Source of the DNA: Pirellula sp.
Lineage (GTDB): Bacteria; Planctomycetota; Planctomycetia; Pirellulales; PNKZ01
DNA: 64,000 nt
NCBI GenBank assembly: GCA_013822735.1
Contig: PNKZ01000002.1
Coordinates: forward strand, 372,001-436,000
Direction of reading: 5' to 3'
Under the pieces are notes generated by a model, which had not been told where the DNA came from, ran no database searches, and saw nothing but the letters and a program-made list of their open reading frames with translations. A program made the position numbers and the translations under genes. Shown here piece after piece: positions 6,370-17,067 of the stretch (position 1 is the stretch's first letter; every line of letters begins with the position of its first letter).

Positions 6370-6879
6370 ATGCCCATTGTGCCCGAGCTACTTGCCGCGT
6401 TGGTCACTCGTTATGCGGGCCCATTGGCATTGTATGCGCGGCAATGGTGCGACGAGGCGGAAGGGCAGGGACCCGACGACGTGGTGCAGGAAGCGTTCGT
6501 GCAACTGGCGCGCCAGGGAGTGCCGCCGGACGATCCGCCGGCATGGCTCTATCGCACGGTGCGCAACGGCGCGCTTTCCGCGCGGCGCTCGTTTTGGCGA
6601 CGCCGCAAGCGCGAGCAGGCCGTGGCTTCGGCCAGGCCGGAGTGGTTTCAACCGACGGAAGAATCACAACTCGACGCCGCCACGGCCGCGGCGGCGCTCG
6701 CCGGACTCGACGACGACCTGCGCGAAACCGTGACGGCGCATCTGTGGGGCGGATTAACGTTTGAACAAATTGCCGGCCTGACAGGCGTAACGTCGAGCAC
6801 GGCCCACCGACGCTACAAGCAAGGCCTAGAACAATTACGAGCACGATTGGAGCGAACATGCACGAACACGAACCCCTAA
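6370..6879 (+). CDS. ECF-type RNA polymerase sigma factor
   Basis: A 169-residue sigma-70 family protein of the short extracytoplasmic-function class. Region 2 is seen in DDVVQEAFVQLARQ and the following PPAWLYRTVRNGALSARR. Region 4 is seen at the C-terminus in LTFEQIAGLTGVTSSTAHRR, a helix-turn-helix that contacts the -35 element. It overlaps the next gene by 22 bases, so the two are translationally linked. It presumably drives a small regulon in response to an envelope signal relayed by that downstream membrane protein; this is inference. Confidence 0.9.
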   Translation: MPIVPELLAALVTRYAGPLALYARQWCDEAEGQGPDDVVQEAFVQLARQGVPPDDPPAWLYRTVRNGALSARRSFWRRRKREQAVASARPEWFQPTEESQLDAATAAAALAGLDDDLRETVTAHLWGGLTFEQIAGLTGVTSSTAHRRYKQGLEQLRARLERTCTNTNP

Positions 6880-7337: not shown

Positions 7338-8810
7338 ATGAAACACTTCCTACTCATCGCCGCAGCTTTGTTGCCTCTTGCCTCCGGGCAGGCTTCAGCC
7401 GAAGACGAGAGCCCCGTTCGGCTGGCGATTACGCCCGCCGTTGAACCATTGCCGGCCTTGAAATATCAGTTGTTGCCCAAGTTTATCGACCGCCGGCCCG
7501 GCAATGCGGCATTGCGTTACACGAAAGCGATGCTCGATTACCGGCCCGAAGCGAAAGTCGATGCGCAGGTCGATGCTTGGCTAAAGCTTCCGTTCGCGGA
7601 GTTTGCCAAGCGCGAAACAATCGACGCGATTCGCAATTCTCACGACACGTATAAGACGTTCGAGGCCGTCCACCAGTCAAACGTCACGTACATCATCGAC
7701 GATCTCCGCGCCGCGGCTCGGCTCGAGTCGTGTGATTGGGAGTTGCCGATTCGCGAGCAGATGGTGTTCGCTATCAAATTGCCCGAAGTGCAGGAGATGC
7801 GGCGCATGTCGCGGTACGTCGCCTTGCGTGCCCGCCTAGAATTGGCGGAGAAGAAGTATGCGGAAGCGGTAGAAACGCTCGGCGTCGGCTATGCGATGGC
7901 GCGGCATGTTTCTCAAGGTGCGACGTTGATCAACGGCCTGGTCGGCGTCGCCGTCGCCGCACAGATGGATCGCGTGTTATTAGATTTCGCCCAAATGCCA
8001 GGTGCCCCGAGTTTGTATTGGGCGCTGACCTTTCAACCGCGACCGCTTGTCGATCCTCGGCCCGGCTTGGAAATGGAAATGACGGCGCTGTTGCTTAGTT
8101 TCCCCGCGCTCCAGACGACGGAACGTTCCGAAGAGGAGTGGAAGATTACGGCGCAACGATTGGCCAAAGAGTTTACGCAGATGTCGGCGTTGCTTTCCAA
8201 CGAAGGACAGCCGGCCGAGTGGTGGTCGAAGGTCTTGGGACAAGTGGCGTTGATGACGCAGGTTGCCGTCAGACGCGACAGTTTGCAAGCGTTCCTCGTG
8301 CGGTGCGGGGCCGATCAGAAGGACGTGGCAGGGCTGAGTGACGCCCAACTCTTCATTGAGTTTAGCCGGCTGAAATATGAAGACCTGCGCGACGATATGT
8401 TCCGCTGGACGATGCTGCCGTATCCCGAAGCGCGTCGGGGCATCGAGGCCGCCGAGCAACGTTTGGCGAAGGCCAAGGCGGGCAACGGCGACGATCAAGA
8501 GATCATTCCGTTTGCTGCGCTCTTGTTGCCCGCCGTGGCGCAGGTGTCGAAAACTTACGCTCGCGGCGAGCGACGTCTCGACGTCTTACGAATTGTCGAA
8601 GGCTTTCGGCTCCACGCCGCCAAGAACGACGGGCGGCTCCCGACGTCGCTCGACGACGTGCAGGTCGTGCCGTTGCCGAAGATCGACGCCGTAACCGGGC
8701 GGCCGTTTGAGTACTCGCTCAAGAACGACACGGCAGTACTCACGCTGCCGGAGGAACGGGGCACGGGCCACAAGGACGCGCTGACGTACGAGATCACGGT
8801 CGCGAAGTAA
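7338..8810 (+). CDS. Secreted protein of unknown function
   Basis: A 490-residue protein with a clear signal peptide (MKHFLLIAAALLPLASGQASA). The mature part is largely helical and charged, with no catalytic motif I can recognise. The C-terminal part (LDVLRIVEGFRLHAAKNDGR, then LPTSLDDVQVVPLPKIDAVT) resembles the end of planctomycete secreted proteins that sit beside ECF sigma genes. It follows the sigma/membrane-protein pair on the same strand with a 39-bp gap and probably belongs to that operon, perhaps as the envelope target or sensor. Function unknown. Confidence 0.7.
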   Translation: MKHFLLIAAALLPLASGQASAEDESPVRLAITPAVEPLPALKYQLLPKFIDRRPGNAALRYTKAMLDYRPEAKVDAQVDAWLKLPFAEFAKRETIDAIRNSHDTYKTFEAVHQSNVTYIIDDLRAAARLESCDWELPIREQMVFAIKLPEVQEMRRMSRYVALRARLELAEKKYAEAVETLGVGYAMARHVSQGATLINGLVGVAVAAQMDRVLLDFAQMPGAPSLYWALTFQPRPLVDPRPGLEMEMTALLLSFPALQTTERSEEEWKITAQRLAKEFTQMSALLSNEGQPAEWWSKVLGQVALMTQVAVRRDSLQAFLVRCGADQKDVAGLSDAQLFIEFSRLKYEDLRDDMFRWTMLPYPEARRGIEAAEQRLAKAKAGNGDDQEIIPFAALLLPAVAQVSKTYARGERRLDVLRIVEGFRLHAAKNDGRLPTSLDDVQVVPLPKIDAVTGRPFEYSLKNDTAVLTLPEERGTGHKDALTYEITVAK

Positions 8811-8833: not shown

Positions 8834-9970
8834 ATGCCTTCTCACGACGCCACGCACGAGCTTGTTCGCCGCATTCATGCGTCCCCCGAGCGCGCCGTGA
8901 TCTCGGTGACCGGCGGCGGGAGCTTGGCGATGAGCAGGCTCCTCTGCGTGCCGGGGGCTTCGCAAACGGTGCTCGAGGCCCGCGTGCCTTACTCGGCGGC
9001 GGCGCTGGGCGAATGGCTCGGGCTACCGCCGGAACAGGCTTGCTCCTCCGCAACGGCCCGAGCCATGGCAATGGCCGGGTATCGCCGGGCGGAGCACTTA
9101 CGCGGAACGGAGCCGTTCCCGGTCGTCGGGCTCGGGCTCACGGCGAGTCTGGCGAGCGATCGACCCAAGCGCGGGGCGCATCGCATTCATCTGGCGGCGC
9201 AGACCGCGGCGTGCACTTGGTCGCAATCGGTCGAGCTTGTGAAGGGGGCTCGTTCGCGCGACGAGGAAGAAACGCTCGCCGCCGATTTGTTGCTCGACTT
9301 GTTCGCCGACGCATGCGGGCTACAGCACCGCCCGGAAGTCTTGCTGCGAGCGGATGAGACCTTGGAGCGACGACGAACCGACGCGCCGCAATCGTGGCAA
9401 GAACTCATGGCGGGGCGGTGCGACAAGATTTCGGCCCGTGAGGAGTCTACAGCGGCGCGCGAGGCGGCCGTCGGGATCTTTCCTGGTTCGTTTAATCCGC
9501 CGCACGACGGACATCGCCGGATGCACGCCCTGGCCGAGGCGCGGCTGGGCGGGCCGGTGCACTTTGAAATCTCCATCGAGAATGTCGGTAAGTTGCCGCT
9601 CGATTTCGAAGACATGGCCGGCCGGTCACGCCAGCTCACCGCCGAACTCGATTTCACGCGCGCGCCGCGAATGGTGCAGAAGGCCCGACTATATCCCGGC
9701 CGGACGATCGTCTGCGGGCTCGACACCATCACGCGCGTCGCCGATGTGAAGTTTGCCGAGGGGAGTGAAACCCATCGAGATCGGACGATCGCCGAAATCG
9801 CGTCGCTCGGCTGCCGTTTCTTGGTGTTCGGCCGCGCGACGCCGCAAGGCTTCCAAACGCTCGACGATCTCGAACTGCCGCCGGCGCTGCGAGCGATCTC
9901 CACGGGGGTGACTGAAGCGGAATTCCGTGCGGACATTTCCTCCACTGCCTTGCGGAGGCATGCAGATTAG
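8834..9970 (+). CDS. CinA-C-like / NadD-like nucleotidyltransferase fusion
   Basis: A 378-residue two-domain protein. Residues about 1-165 resemble the CinA C-terminal (PncC) fold, with VPGASQTVLEARVPYS and the following LG-rich helices. The usual ESCTGG start of the motif is altered to VTGGGS, so deamidase activity is doubtful. Residues about 210-375 are a HxGH-superfamily adenylyltransferase with GIFPGSFNPPHDGH at its start and DISSTALRR, the ISSTxxR signature, at the end. CinA-type domains turn NMN into nicotinate mononucleotide and NadD-type domains adenylate it, so a fused NAD salvage enzyme is the simplest reading. A different nucleotide substrate is possible. The gap to the previous gene is 23 bp. 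Confidence 0.75.
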   Translation: MPSHDATHELVRRIHASPERAVISVTGGGSLAMSRLLCVPGASQTVLEARVPYSAAALGEWLGLPPEQACSSATARAMAMAGYRRAEHLRGTEPFPVVGLGLTASLASDRPKRGAHRIHLAAQTAACTWSQSVELVKGARSRDEEETLAADLLLDLFADACGLQHRPEVLLRADETLERRRTDAPQSWQELMAGRCDKISAREESTAAREAAVGIFPGSFNPPHDGHRRMHALAEARLGGPVHFEISIENVGKLPLDFEDMAGRSRQLTAELDFTRAPRMVQKARLYPGRTIVCGLDTITRVADVKFAEGSETHRDRTIAEIASLGCRFLVFGRATPQGFQTLDDLELPPALRAISTGVTEAEFRADISSTALRRHAD

Positions 9971-12832: not shown

Positions 12833-15800
12833 TCAGCGCCAGTCTCCCGACAAGGCAAACGCGGCCCAATAACGGGCGGCGGTGCGTAAGCGGGGTTCGT
12901 CTTCAGGCGGTTCGGCCCCGCGCACTGCGTCGGGATTGTTGAGCAAATAGAGTTGTGCTTCGCGCAGAGCCGCGAGCCGAGGCATTTCTTTGTCCCACAG
13001 GTTGCGATAGAAGCGTTCCATCAAGAGCCGCGTGGCAAGGTCGTCGACCTTCCAATAGCCGGCGATCGTCGTGCGGGCTCCAGCGACTTGGAACGAGCGT
13101 TGCAAACCAAGCAGCCCTTCGCCGCCCGCCACCTCACCGAGGCCGGTTTCGCAAGCGCTGAGGACTGCCAGGTCGACGTGCCGCAAGTCGAGCGTTTGCA
13201 CTTCTTCGGCGGTGAGGATGCCGTCGGCACGGTCGGGCGCAGAGGGACGATTGGCGCCGGCCAATGCGAGCCCTGAAAGCAAGCCGGGGTGCTGCCCCAC
13301 GAGCGCCGGACCGGCGCCGGCAAGCGACCGGGTGCCGGCGGTCGATGTTGCAGGTTCGTCGCTTGCGGCAGTCAACGCCGAGCGCAATTCCGGCGGCGCG
13401 AAAAACCCGTGCGTCGCCACGTGCAAAAACAAATGCTTGGGAGCTTCTGCTTTAAAACGTTCTTCCTCGGCTGCGGCTTTCTCAAGGCGCGTGAGTCCGG
13501 CATCGCCGAATAGGTCGCGATAGGTTTTTTCGATCACCGCGATCTCGCCGATGGCGCCCGTGAGCGGCTCGAACTTTCGCCACTCGGCGCCGCGCGCCAC
13601 GCGCCGACCGAATGACTTTTTGGGGAGAGCCGCCATTCCGCCTTCGTCGGCGTCGTAGTCGACGGCGCCGACCAACAGCATATTGCCGAGCTGCACCGCG
13701 GGTTCGGCTTTCTCGGCCAGGACGCTCGGCAGCGCCTGGGCGACGGGTACGGTCGCCAGAGCCCAATCTTCCAGGAGATAAGATCCTTCGGCTCGGCCCG
13801 GCAGTGCGGCCAAGGGAAAGCGGCCGAGCACGCCGTCGGGCGAGATCATGACGGTTTGCCCCTTCGCAAGCCGAGCTTCCAGCGGCAGCCAGACGAGCTC
13901 ACGAAGTTTTCGGGCCGCGACTGCGGCCTCGGGCGCGGTGCCGTACGAAGCGCGCCAAAGATCAACCGCCGCTCCAATTTCATCGGCGGCCCCGAGTTCC
14001 ACGAGTTCGATTGGTCCCGAACGCCGCACGATGAACGCCGCTAAGCGACGATCCGGTTCGTCAGGCTTACTTTCGTCCTGATGTCGGGCGTCGGTCGCGG
14101 CCGGCGAGCGCTCGAACTCCAAAATATCGCACAACACAACGTCGTCCGGCAGCACGGCGCGCACGTCTTCGAGCGTCGTCACCTTCCGCGAGGAACGAAA
14201 CGCGGCGCTTTCGGAGGCAAGCCTGCGCTCCAATAATTCCTTTTCCGTGGTGAGTCGCTCCAGTTCGTTGCGCCACGCCTCGCGCTGTTCCGGCTTCGGT
14301 TCGCGCATCGCCTGATCGGCAAGTTGCGACGTTATTCGTTGCAGCGATTCAAACAACGGTGCCGATTTCGGATCGTCGGCCGCCGCGCGGAGCCGGCGCT
14401 GCTGCATCCAGGCGCTTCCTTTATGTCGCAAGGCGAAGCGATAGGCCTGCTCCGTGTAGTCGCGCGCATCGACGGCAATGGCGAGGTAAACGTCGAGGAG
14501 CCGAGCCTGCGCGGCAGCCATCGCCAATTGTCGACGCTCGGCTTGCGACTCCATCACGCGGTCGGTCCAGGCTTGCGAGCGCTCCAAGGCTTCGCGGCCG
14601 AGGATTTCCGCCGCCGGAAAATTGCCGACGGCATGCTCCAGCGACGCTAGTCCGAGCAAGCGACCCGGCAGACCTTGGTAATCGTCCCCTTCGTCGGCAC
14701 GGGTGCGATCGATCAGTTCTCGATATAGCGCTCGCGATTCGTCGACGCGACCTTGCAAAAAGCGGACCGACGCCAGGGTCTGCGTCGTGGTCGCATACTC
14801 CGGGTGCGATTTGCCGACGAGCTTTTCCTGCAACGACCGAGCTTCTTCCAGCAATTGGGATGCTTCGTCGAGGCGATCCAGATGTCGATAGACCGAAGCT
14901 ATCTGACTCAACGAGCGCGCGTATTCGGGATGCTTGTCTCCCACGGCCGCAAGGTAACAGGCGCGCGCTTCTTCCAGAACGTCGCGAGCTTTCAGGTATT
15001 CGCCACGGTGGCCGTAAATGTGGCCGAGGTTGGCCAGCGTCCGGCCATACGGCAGGCTTTCGCGTCCATAGGCCTGCAGGAAGATTTCCAAATTGCGGCG
15101 CTGCAATCGCTCCGCTTCGGCGAAATCGGAAAGGCCGACGAACACCAACGCCAGGTTGCTTTGCGCCGCGGCCACGGAGGTGTGGTCTTTCCCGAAGAGC
15201 GCCGTGTAGATCTCGACGGACTTGCGTTCCGGCTCTTCCGCTTCGAGAAACTTGCCTTGCATCGTGAGAGCGCTGCCGATATTCCCGAGCGTGCGCGCAT
15301 AGCGACCGGTTTTCTCGGCCTTGATATCGCGAAAGATGGCGAGCGCCTCTTCGAACAGGGCGAGCGCCTCGTCGTAGCTGCCTTGCGACCAACGGAGCGC
15401 CCCGAGATAGTTCAAGCCCAAGGCGTGCCCGCCGCTGCGCTCGCCGAAGGCGGCGATGTTCACGGCCAATGCTTCGCGAAAATACGGCTCTGCGGCGGCG
15501 TAGTTTCCCTGCGCGCGATACAGACTGCCGAGACTGAACAGAGCGGAGGCGTATTCGGGGTGTTTATCGCCGAGCATCTCCTTCTGTCCGGTAAGAATTC
15601 GACGGAGCAACGGTTCGGCTTCGGCGTACTTGCCGGTTTCCACCAACATGTCGGCCTGGAGGTTTAACGTGCGCAGCGTTTCGGGGTGGTTCTTCCCCTT
15701 GGAATACTCGTAAACCGCCACAGCTTGTTTGTAATACTCGGCGGCGCGCGGATAGTCGGACTTGCAGTCGTAAAGATACCCGAGATTCGAGAGCACTAGT

Positions 15801-16942
15801 CCGTAGAGTTCCGAGCGCGGGCCCAACGTCCTACGGGCGATTTCCAGCGATTCGCGCAGCAGCGGTTCGGCCTCGCGAAACCGAGCCAAGTTGTTGAGCG
15901 ACGCGCCGGCGTTGTTGATAAACAGCGCGTAGTCGCCATGCTCCTTACCGATCGTCGCTTCGTAAATCCGGGCGGCTTTCTGGAGCAAAGCGAGCGCTTC
16001 GGCGTATCTGTCGAGCGAGAAGTAAAGCGAAGCTAAATCGTTCGTCGCCTGAGCGTACTCCGGATGGTTCTTGCCATACGTTTGTTCCGCCAACGCAATC
16101 GTGCGCCCGAACAAGCGTTCCGCTTCGTCGTAGTTGGCCTGCGAGCGATGGATGAGCGCCAGTTGTTTGATTGCTTCGATATATTCCGAGCTGTCTTGCC
16201 CCATGACGCGCTCGATGCTCGTCGCGGCCTGGGTCACTTGCACGATCGCTTCCCGGTAGCGTCCCTGAGCTTCTAAGCTCTTGCCGGCGAGCAATGCGAA
16301 CATGCCGCCGCTCATTCCGAGCACGGCGCCGAACGTCGCATTTTGACAATCTTTCGCGCCGCGCGCGCTCACGCGGGCGTCGACGCGGCGCCAGTAGTCT
16401 TGTGGATAAGCGCGGCCCAGTTCGACGTCGAGTTGGTTGAAAATTGCGAAGGCGACGTCGTATTGCGTACTGCTTTTGAACATTTCAGCCAGGGTTTCCG
16501 CCTGTTCCACCAGGTCGTCCGTGAGTTCGGGCGCCGATTTTGGAAAGCCGGGGAGTTGCCGCACGGCCGCGGCGAAGAGCTTTTCCGCGACGTCGACACG
16601 CTTGATCAACAGAACGCGACGATCTTCATCGCTCAACTTGTTTGCGCCGGCGGCGAGTTGCTCGTCGAGTTGTTTGCGAAGGGCGAACTCGGGCCGTTTG
16701 AAGAATGTTTCGCGGGCGAGCCGTTCGGCATCGGCGGTTTGAGCGGCGAAGGCAGGATCGGGAACGGATGCGCTCGGCGAAGATGTCGTCGCCGACGCCG
16801 TGTTTGGTACGGTTGCTTCCGGTTCCGCAGCCTGCAGACGAACGACGACGCCCCAAACCGCCGCGCAGGCCGCGAGGTAGGGGAGACCAAACGAAAGTAA
16901 ATTCGCCGTGCGTCGCATGACGGGCTTTCCGAATTCGGACAT
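12833..16942 (-). CDS. TPR-CHAT caspase-like exported protein
   Basis: A 1369-residue protein (start 16942; 16918 also possible). The N-terminus has a hydrophobic export signal (LPYLAACAAVWGVVVRLQAA). Residues about 190-800 form a long array of Kinesin-light-chain-type TPR repeats; units such as EYAQATNDLASLYFSLDRYA recur every 42 residues. The last 350 residues are a CHAT protease domain. Its catalytic His is in HVATHGFF (about residue 1178) and its Cys in VLSACETGLG (about residue 1264); both are intact. CHAT proteases cleave partner proteins after a signal is sensed by the repeat region. No obvious target or nucleic-acid module lies nearby, and the export signal argues against the cytosolic CRISPR-linked type. 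Confidence 0.88.
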   Translation of the reverse strand: MSEFGKPVMRRTANLLSFGLPYLAACAAVWGVVVRLQAAEPEATVPNTASATTSSPSASVPDPAFAAQTADAERLARETFFKRPEFALRKQLDEQLAAGANKLSDEDRRVLLIKRVDVAEKLFAAAVRQLPGFPKSAPELTDDLVEQAETLAEMFKSSTQYDVAFAIFNQLDVELGRAYPQDYWRRVDARVSARGAKDCQNATFGAVLGMSGGMFALLAGKSLEAQGRYREAIVQVTQAATSIERVMGQDSSEYIEAIKQLALIHRSQANYDEAERLFGRTIALAEQTYGKNHPEYAQATNDLASLYFSLDRYAEALALLQKAARIYEATIGKEHGDYALFINNAGASLNNLARFREAEPLLRESLEIARRTLGPRSELYGLVLSNLGYLYDCKSDYPRAAEYYKQAVAVYEYSKGKNHPETLRTLNLQADMLVETGKYAEAEPLLRRILTGQKEMLGDKHPEYASALFSLGSLYRAQGNYAAAEPYFREALAVNIAAFGERSGGHALGLNYLGALRWSQGSYDEALALFEEALAIFRDIKAEKTGRYARTLGNIGSALTMQGKFLEAEEPERKSVEIYTALFGKDHTSVAAAQSNLALVFVGLSDFAEAERLQRRNLEIFLQAYGRESLPYGRTLANLGHIYGHRGEYLKARDVLEEARACYLAAVGDKHPEYARSLSQIASVYRHLDRLDEASQLLEEARSLQEKLVGKSHPEYATTTQTLASVRFLQGRVDESRALYRELIDRTRADEGDDYQGLPGRLLGLASLEHAVGNFPAAEILGREALERSQAWTDRVMESQAERRQLAMAAAQARLLDVYLAIAVDARDYTEQAYRFALRHKGSAWMQQRRLRAAADDPKSAPLFESLQRITSQLADQAMREPKPEQREAWRNELERLTTEKELLERRLASESAAFRSSRKVTTLEDVRAVLPDDVVLCDILEFERSPAATDARHQDESKPDEPDRRLAAFIVRRSGPIELVELGAADEIGAAVDLWRASYGTAPEAAVAARKLRELVWLPLEARLAKGQTVMISPDGVLGRFPLAALPGRAEGSYLLEDWALATVPVAQALPSVLAEKAEPAVQLGNMLLVGAVDYDADEGGMAALPKKSFGRRVARGAEWRKFEPLTGAIGEIAVIEKTYRDLFGDAGLTRLEKAAAEEERFKAEAPKHLFLHVATHGFFAPPELRSALTAASDEPATSTAGTRSLAGAGPALVGQHPGLLSGLALAGANRPSAPDRADGILTAEEVQTLDLRHVDLAVLSACETGLGEVAGGEGLLGLQRSFQVAGARTTIAGYWKVDDLATRLLMERFYRNLWDKEMPRLAALREAQLYLLNNPDAVRGAEPPEDEPRLRTAARYWAAFALSGDWR

Positions 16943-17067
16943 CGGTTCCGCATATTTGACGGAACCTTGTATTAATGTCCCCACTACGTGGCGGGGAATC
17001 AAGTGTCGAGCTCGACTTGCTGGTTGCTGAGGGGACAATTGCCGAGAAAACTCCGGCGAATCGAGCG

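Follow-up and report, generated by a model that had tools for sequence, protein, structure and literature searches.

A candidate NMN adenylyltransferase in which a CinA-type domain is fused to a NadD/NMNAT-type nucleotidyltransferase, from planctomycetes, gammaproteobacteria and large phages

NAD-dependent DNA ligase releases NMN as a by-product, which must be recycled. NMN made by NAMPT is converted to NAD by one adenylyl transfer; the route through NaMN needs NAD synthetase as well. Among the PncC/CinA proteins, TtCinA holds its product NaMN by Arg-377, Tyr-296, and the amides of Gly-284 and Ser-286 (PMC4246079), and in A. tumefaciens PncC either of the substitutions S31A and K63A makes activity undetectable (PMC5384747). 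CinA is occasionally fused with other domains, cases that were left aside by the authors who mention them (PMC3855486).

Viral NAD salvage is an active field owing to the NAD-depleting defences that are directed against phages. The phage salvage routes described combine NadV with NadM or NadR (PMC9503650), and the phage NARP1 pair consists of Adps and Namat (PMC12774641). The main text of the former names only NadM and NadR and does not contain the terms CinA, PncC, and NadD; the main text of the latter does not contain the term CinA. Our search of the literature by subject, which covered titles and abstract openings, brought up no description that we recognised as a CinA-NMNAT fusion. The Arabidopsis protein At2g01220 may combine CinA and NMNAT-type domains in the same architecture; a literature search by that name found nothing. 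Here we describe a protein of this kind encoded in a 64,000-nucleotide stretch of a Pirellula sp. genome (the window, meaning the whole stretch of DNA analysed), together with its relatives in bacteria and on viral contigs.

Gene, folds, and surroundings

The features of the fusion gene are collected in Table 1. Its frame contains no internal stop in the window, and the matched stretch is also open in 85/85 loci from other contigs, all of them chosen for a long match along the protein (the best 80 of 502 relatives plus five full-length loci from a separate search; one locus, L055, ends at a contig edge). Chance read-through or a frame artefact is rejected on this count.

Table 1. Coordinates of the fusion gene, its domains, and its site residues in the window, with the COG1058-KH-CinA protein of the same genome
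Feature	Residues	Position	Strand	Basis or conservation
Fusion gene, 378 aa + stop	1-378	8834..9970	+	Single open frame, ATG start; long-matching loci open
CinA/PncC-like domain	5-162	8846..9319	+	Model; 2a9s Z 18.1, rmsd 2.1, 148 aligned
VTGGGS loop in place of ESCTGG; T26 at catalytic Ser	25-30	8906..8923	+	TtCinA register, gap-free count back
PGAS, counterparts of TtCinA phosphate-binding Gly-284 and Ser-286	40-43	8951..8962	+	G41, S43 85/85
Y53, counterpart of TtCinA phosphate-binding Tyr-296	53	8990..8992	+	85/85 cellular, 31/31 viral
L58 at catalytic Lys-301/K63 position	58	9005..9007	+	Gap-free part of TtCinA alignment
T103, counterpart of Thr-340/T105	103	9140..9142	+	hhalign; T78 S7 of 85
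R142, counterpart of phosphate-binding Arg-377/R145	142	9257..9259	+	hhalign; 85/85 cellular, 31/31 viral
NadD/NMNAT-like nucleotidyltransferase domain	210-378	9461..9967	+	Structure match and 1kku profile match
GSFNPPHDGH, HxGH nucleotide-binding motif	218-227	9485..9514	+	G218, P222, H224, H227 85/85
K253, counterpart of PPHK Lys by equal spacing to next Arg	253	9590..9592	+	85/85
GLDT, aligned with GAD of NMNAT	295-298	9716..9727	+	G295, D297, T298 85/85
ISSTALR, aligned with ISSTKIR of NMNAT	368-374	9935..9955	+	S370, R374 85/85
COG1058-KH-CinA protein		L001:1474-2730; genome place G000:C28:61348-61794	-	Degenerate PncC domain

Single-sequence profile scores are weak for both halves, and it is structure that settles the two fold identities. 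PF02464 (CinA) gives 22.5 bits for the protein against a cut-off of 23.5 and passes with 23.8 bits on the genome frame; PF01467 (CTP_transf_like) gives 22.8 bits against a cut-off of 21 with a single-sequence profile; and the NadD equivalog scores lie far under their cut-offs (14.3 bits against 112.45 for TIGR00482 and 25.8 against 240 for another). Pfam profiles found no NUDIX match in the protein. The AlphaFold2 model, made with 85 aligned sequences, has a mean pLDDT of 94.6 and a pTM of 0.92, and ten CinA/PncC entries reach Z 16 or more against residues 5-162 in VIA-align. In the same program residues 210-369 superpose on NadD 5vir with Z 10.8 (rmsd 3.4, 142 aligned); NMNAT3 5z9r scores Z 9.5, CoaD 5o08 Z 7.6, and ATP sulfurylase Z 7.4, so that by fold the C half stands closer to NadD/NMNAT than to either of the latter two.

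In sequence, the profile of the C half aligns with human NMNAT 1kku (E 1.5e-5) over two stretches, which take in the GAD and ISST-R regions. For the N half the profile match, to TtCinA 272-327, is weak (E 0.009); its gap-free part, 272-305, contains Gly-284, Ser-286, Tyr-296, and Lys-301. A model of a phage relative (L147; pLDDT 85.0) has the same two folds, its transferase half scoring Z 12.4 with NadD, 12.1 with a further NadD/NMNAT entry, 11.7 with human NMNAT, and 8.6 with CoaD. On the predicted structures, the window protein is confirmed as a true two-domain fusion of a CinA/PncC fold with a NadD/NMNAT fold. The first-pass annotation had described it as one uninterrupted 378-residue frame with a CinA/PncC-like first half and a NadD-like second half; the open frame, both here and in the other loci, and the two folds bear this out, the first half matching 2a9s closely despite its weak profile score and the second ranking NadD/NMNAT above CoaD.

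The gene starts 23 bases downstream of a 490-aa frame on the same strand (7338-8810, +) for which there is no Pfam match, and no promoter-like site was found at the fusion gene in the window. A sigma-70-like factor is encoded at 6370-6879, and at 12836-17038 (-) the window encodes a protein of 1401 aa that has many TPR repeats and, at its C terminus, a CHAT domain. Neighbours were clustered for 81 bacterial loci (80 fetched plus the window), the neighbour frames being mechanical ORFs, some of them spurious. Read by eye, the recurrent clusters printed comprise protein kinases, a GNAT-like family, ROK kinases, LepA, and similar proteins; no NAD gene was recognised by eye among these clusters of the 81 loci, and an operon or neighbour logic in bacteria is rejected on that ground. 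Membership in a defence system is also rejected, PADLOC matches being absent for the window protein and two phage relatives. At four loci of the gammaproteobacterial group (L042, L044, L052, and L056), flavin monooxygenase-like frames of ~330-635 aa flank the fusion on either side.

Residues at the two putative active sites

Cellular residues were compared in an alignment of the window and 84 loci (A2; 85 rows, L055 left out). The register of the CinA half comes from the profile alignment with TtCinA and from hhalign with a CinA alignment, and what it gives is the equivalence of positions. The counterparts of the TtCinA phosphate contacts, G41, S43, Y53, and R142, are present in 85/85 rows, the window included, and S43, Y53, and R142 in 31/31 viral fusions, copies included. 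The catalytic Ser position is occupied by Thr in 68 of the 85 rows, Ser in nine, Ala in seven, and Asn in one. At the catalytic Lys position the cellular rows have Leu (70), Met (nine), Val (three), Ile (two), or Gln (one); Lys is found there in 0/85 of them and in 0/31 viral proteins, copies included.

With the catalytic Lys never kept and the Ser mostly replaced by Thr, the CinA half should not deamidate by the accepted mechanism. Judging from these aligned residues, it probably binds NMN instead of deamidating it. The absence of the usual ESCTGG start had been pointed out in the first-pass annotation and is confirmed, the stretch reading VTGGGS, and the accompanying remark that this half "may sense rather than cut" gains support from the broken Ser/Lys dyad. 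The suggestion that NMN is deamidated and the resulting NaMN then adenylated, channelled within one protein, is unsupported as it stands, since it needs a working deamidase and the catalytic Lys is missing from every aligned member.

A version of channelling can nevertheless be framed, in which the CinA half deamidates NMN through Thr26 and a different base, the product NaMN then being adenylated by the C half. Ser or Thr does stand at the nucleophile position in 77/85 rows. Ala or Asn stands there in 8/85, however, and the K63A substitution, which kills detectable activity of A. tumefaciens PncC (PMC5384747), removes the very Lys that is found in none of the 85 cellular rows or 31 viral proteins. 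The genomic evidence on this reading is taken up below.

In the transferase half, H224, H227, K253, G295, D297, T298, R301, S370, and R374 are invariant in the 85 rows. Most phage members of a further alignment (A7) carry PPHK, with its Lys as far from the next Arg as K253 is, as judged by eye. The Trp of NadD stacks on the pyridine ring; in cellular members the position holds Tyr (77) or Phe (eight), and in viral members Tyr (14), Trp (14), Phe (two), or Leu (one). HK and Trp are both at the usual NadD places in 14 phage members.

Tyr or Phe at the Trp position in cellular members, and family scores far below the NadD equivalog cut-offs (25.8 bits against 240), would agree with a transferase half that acts outside NAD metabolism, on pantetheine phosphate or another alcohol phosphate. 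We regard such a substrate as very unlikely: NadD/NMNAT structures rank above CoaD and ATP sulfurylase for the window model and above CoaD for the phage model, HK and Trp stand where NadD has them in the 14 phage members, NAMPT genes neighbour the fusion in viral loci, and the half is joined to an NMN-type pocket.

NAD genes in fusion-bearing bacteria and viral contigs

The fusion does have relatives in other genomes, 502 in GTDB and 41 at viral loci. The scan of GTDB species genomes returned 559 pattern matches, of which these 502 encode a relative; for the best 80 of the 502, which were kept, the labels point to planctomycetes, to Pseudomonadales/Porticoccaceae/OM182 and further gammaproteobacteria, and in single cases to Myxococcales and Chloroflexi. 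Of 392 genomes drawn from the phylum, 131 give a match of some kind, in most cases a weak one to an ordinary CinA or NadD. In 12/392 the match is strong (E below 1e-100) and close to full length, and ten of these 12 belong to the window's own order, which contributes 12 genomes to the draw. Partial weak matches to the transferase half (E 1e-11 to 1e-14) in other planctomycetes (L123, L124, and L125, in G130, G020, and G061) possibly represent a sister family.

In seven genomes of the class the strong match falls mainly on the transferase half. In the four of these that were aligned (L012-L015), the listed transferase residues are kept and position 307 is Phe or Tyr, while Y53, R142, and G41, with most of the glycine loop, are missing or fail to align; these class members with a decayed CinA half have a live PncC in the genome. 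Such sequences indicate that the transferase half is the constant part. The decay agrees with an N half that has given up a deamidase role just as well as with one that captures NMN.

As to a separate nadD and pncC in the window genome, an ordinary NadD is present (156.3 bits against a cut-off of 112.45), and a CinA is present whose PncC part is degenerate, with EWGTVG, Thr for Tyr, and Ala for Lys. A separate NadD scores over the cut-off in 63/64 genomes tested, which amounts to 61/62 of those with the fusion, the miss being G454. Since NadD is kept, the fusion does not replace it, and the possibility that the fusion is a genome's sole NadD is rejected.

A PncC was counted as live where E-S, Tyr, Lys, and S/T-G are all present. 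Thirty of the 392 genomes were chosen for comparison: 12 with an intact fusion, seven with the transferase half kept and the CinA half lost or decayed, and 11 with neither. A live PncC occurs in 18/18 of the chosen planctomycetes without an intact fusion versus 0/12 with one, a contrast measured within the phylum, where 10/12 fusion genomes belong to one order and independent events are few. The CinA of the 12 is degenerate in ten, and two (G357 and G058) have no CinA match besides the fusion; in G005 the CinA is decayed half-way, with EGCTGG, Tyr, and Lys present and VG for TG. G274 and G353, two order-mates in which the fusion is absent, each have a stand-alone PncC that is live. Across the draw, PF02464 at E <= 1e-25 is found in 1/12 fusion genomes (G005) versus 346/380 others, by a count made by eye. 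Because the PncC domain has decayed in the CinA of many fusion-bearing planctomycetes, annotation of these proteins as NMN deamidases would be wrong.

Among 50 of 79 further fusion genomes, a live PncC was found in five (G448, G449, G456, G459, and G472), four of them from one gammaproteobacterial clade and one labelled Myxococcales; these five count against the idea that the fusion replaces PncC. Fourteen of the 50 have no CinA match at the threshold, and 28/50 have a degenerate CinA or weak matches that, where read, are the fusion itself, some weak second CinA matches having been left unread. The best CinA match of G453 ends at a contig edge and has Arg for Lys. The genome sets overlap slightly, G389 and G436 looking like the same genome. 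In three more of the 50, all of them fusion-bearing gammaproteobacteria (L234, L235, and L236, in G474, G467, and G455), a YdeJ-like CinA protein has Arg in place of the catalytic Lys and LG in place of TG.

Within the phylum the contrast is strong: the fusion accompanies a lack of the NMN deamidase and not a lack of NadD. It can also be claimed for a CinA half that still deamidates, as the fusion is found in genomes with no live PncC, and genomes whose CinA half has decayed do have a PncC; in 61/62 fusion genomes, however, NaMN is already adenylated by the separate NadD.

The 41 viral loci come from the IMG/VR scan; their contigs measure 11-533 kb, 19 of which reach at least 150 kb. The loci comprise 31 full fusions, five pairs of split overlapping genes, and five transferase halves alone. 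Phage status follows the IMG/VR and INPHARED labels. Some of the loci are copies (L136/L137, L141/L159, L164/L165, L168/L169, and L171/L172) or nearly so (L139/L140). In INPHARED, a relative is present in LR745208.1 (485 kb, labelled uncultured phage), and LR756511.1 (595 kb, uncultured phage) has the transferase half only, adjoined by thymidylate synthase and dihydrofolate reductase-like frames as read by eye. BFVD contains a whole-length match, annotated only as cytidyltransferase-like, from an uncultured Caudovirales phage (389 columns, E 3.2e-25); its rmsd of 17.7 implies that the two domains are differently placed. CinA/PncC-like proteins are predicted in BFVD also for an uncultured marine phage and for giant viruses (Terrestrivirus and Marseillevirus LCMAC101). 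No PHROGs family was found for the window protein, three phage fusions, or both halves of one split pair. In a quick tree the cellular and viral proteins lie on opposite sides of one branch, whose support is 62, and the viral branches are long, so that the tree favours no direction of transfer.

PF04095 (NAMPT/NAPRT) is found in 29/41 viral records and NAD synthetase in 3/41. At 19/41 viral loci, copies counted (15 without near copies), a NAMPT-like frame is found no more than 5 kb away in the same orientation, and at L134 it starts at the last base counted for the fusion. Among 59 chosen neighbour proteins from 16 loci, PF04095 accounts for six, NAMPT_N for four, the NAMPT PHROG for up to seven, and PRPP synthetase for one. 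Nudix-linked proteins, by BLAST, recur in 13 viral loci. In six of these loci (L134, L136, L137, L144, L164, and L165; four without copies), a NadM-Nudix-like protein lacks HxGH as read and has a Nudix half that looks intact.

Two of the three NAD-synthetase records, G405 (the record of L147) and G414, combine the fusion with an NAD synthetase match (partial in G414) and have no NAMPT/NAPRT match. This is the pattern expected of the deamidated route; it speaks for a CinA half that deamidates and counts against NMN as the substrate of the transferase. The general scarcity of NAD synthetase beside NAMPT/NAPRT in the viral records points the other way, with the caveat that a host enzyme could serve. 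Taking residues and genomes together, we consider deamidation by the CinA half improbable, yet deserving of serious attention.

The split loci (L164, L165, L170, L171, and L172; three without copies), in which the halves are two overlapping adjacent genes, imply that covalent channelling is not essential. They also favour a regulated adenylyltransferase whose CinA half would sense NMN, NaMN, or some other nucleotide allosterically, with no hand-over of substrate, and the invariance of the phosphate pocket in the absence of the catalytic Lys fits such a sensor too. All four aligned class members, however, have lost pocket residues and kept the transferase residues, so that regulation would be dispensable there, and we think a purely regulatory CinA half unlikely.

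Proposed role and comparison with known systems

We propose, with confidence no better than even, that the protein is a pyridine-mononucleotide adenylyltransferase, most likely acting on NMN, in which a CinA-type domain has kept its phosphate pocket and lost the machinery for deamidation. The pseudo-deamidase domain would capture or sense NMN, and the C-terminal domain would couple NMN to the AMP moiety of ATP. NAD would thus form in a single step, and an NMN deamidase would no longer be needed. In phages the NMN would be supplied by NAMPT. NadV-type NAMPT is over its cut-off in only 1/50 cellular fusion genomes and is rejected as the NMN source of the bacteria; there, we infer, NMN would come mostly from NAD-dependent DNA ligase and NAD turnover. 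An NMN-using transferase fits best because the viral records often have NAMPT-type genes and seldom an NAD synthetase, and because PncC is mostly missing and NadD kept in the bacteria.

A broader scheme seems to us attractive but tentative, falling somewhat short of an even chance. The fusion would constitute a third class of NMN adenylyltransferase, equipped with an NMN-capturing pseudo-deamidase; it would have displaced PncC in Pirellulales-like planctomycetes and several gammaproteobacteria, and in large phages it would make NAD from the product of NAMPT, presumably as a counter to NAD-depleting defences. The fusion-bearing planctomycetes lack the textbook NMN deamidase or have a broken one, and the fusion is a concrete candidate for its replacement. 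Beside NAMPT on large phage contigs it would be a viral NAD-salvage adenylyltransferase outside NadM and NadR. It would also be a case of an enzyme fold that keeps its substrate pocket and drops its chemistry, with decayed and split versions at hand for comparison.

Both folds are known; it is their combination that was unrecognised in the literature searched by title and abstract opening, and its role that is proposed here. With the C-terminal domain of PncC/CinA (PF02464; TtCinA 4CT8-4UUX, A. tumefaciens 2A9S) the N half shares the fold (Z 16-18), the phosphate-binding Gly/Ser, Tyr, and Arg, and the Thr-340 counterpart. It differs in having VTGGGS for ESCTGG, and Leu or another residue for the catalytic Lys in all aligned members, and in being joined to a nucleotidyltransferase, whereas the domain in CinA is joined to COG1058. 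With NadD/NMNAT the C half shares the fold (Z 9-12), HxGH, the Lys, GxD, and SSTxxR; unlike NadD, the fusion scores below the NadD family cut-offs, has Tyr or Phe for Trp in its cellular members, carries an N-terminal CinA domain, and coexists with an ordinary NadD.

The phage enzymes NadM-Nudix and NadR, as described together with NadV (PMC9503650), resemble the fusion in their place in the pathway beside NAMPT, in their occurrence on large viral contigs, and in having a HIGH-type transferase within a two-domain protein; the partner domain in the fusion, however, is a CinA pseudo-deamidase and not a Nudix domain or a kinase. COG1058-CinA proteins and the inactive CinA proteins of the YfaY/YdeJ type likewise have a CinA domain in a fusion, and inactive CinA is known from them (PMC3855486), but the partner there is another one, and the present fusion has lost the catalytic dyad yet strictly keeps the phosphate contacts.
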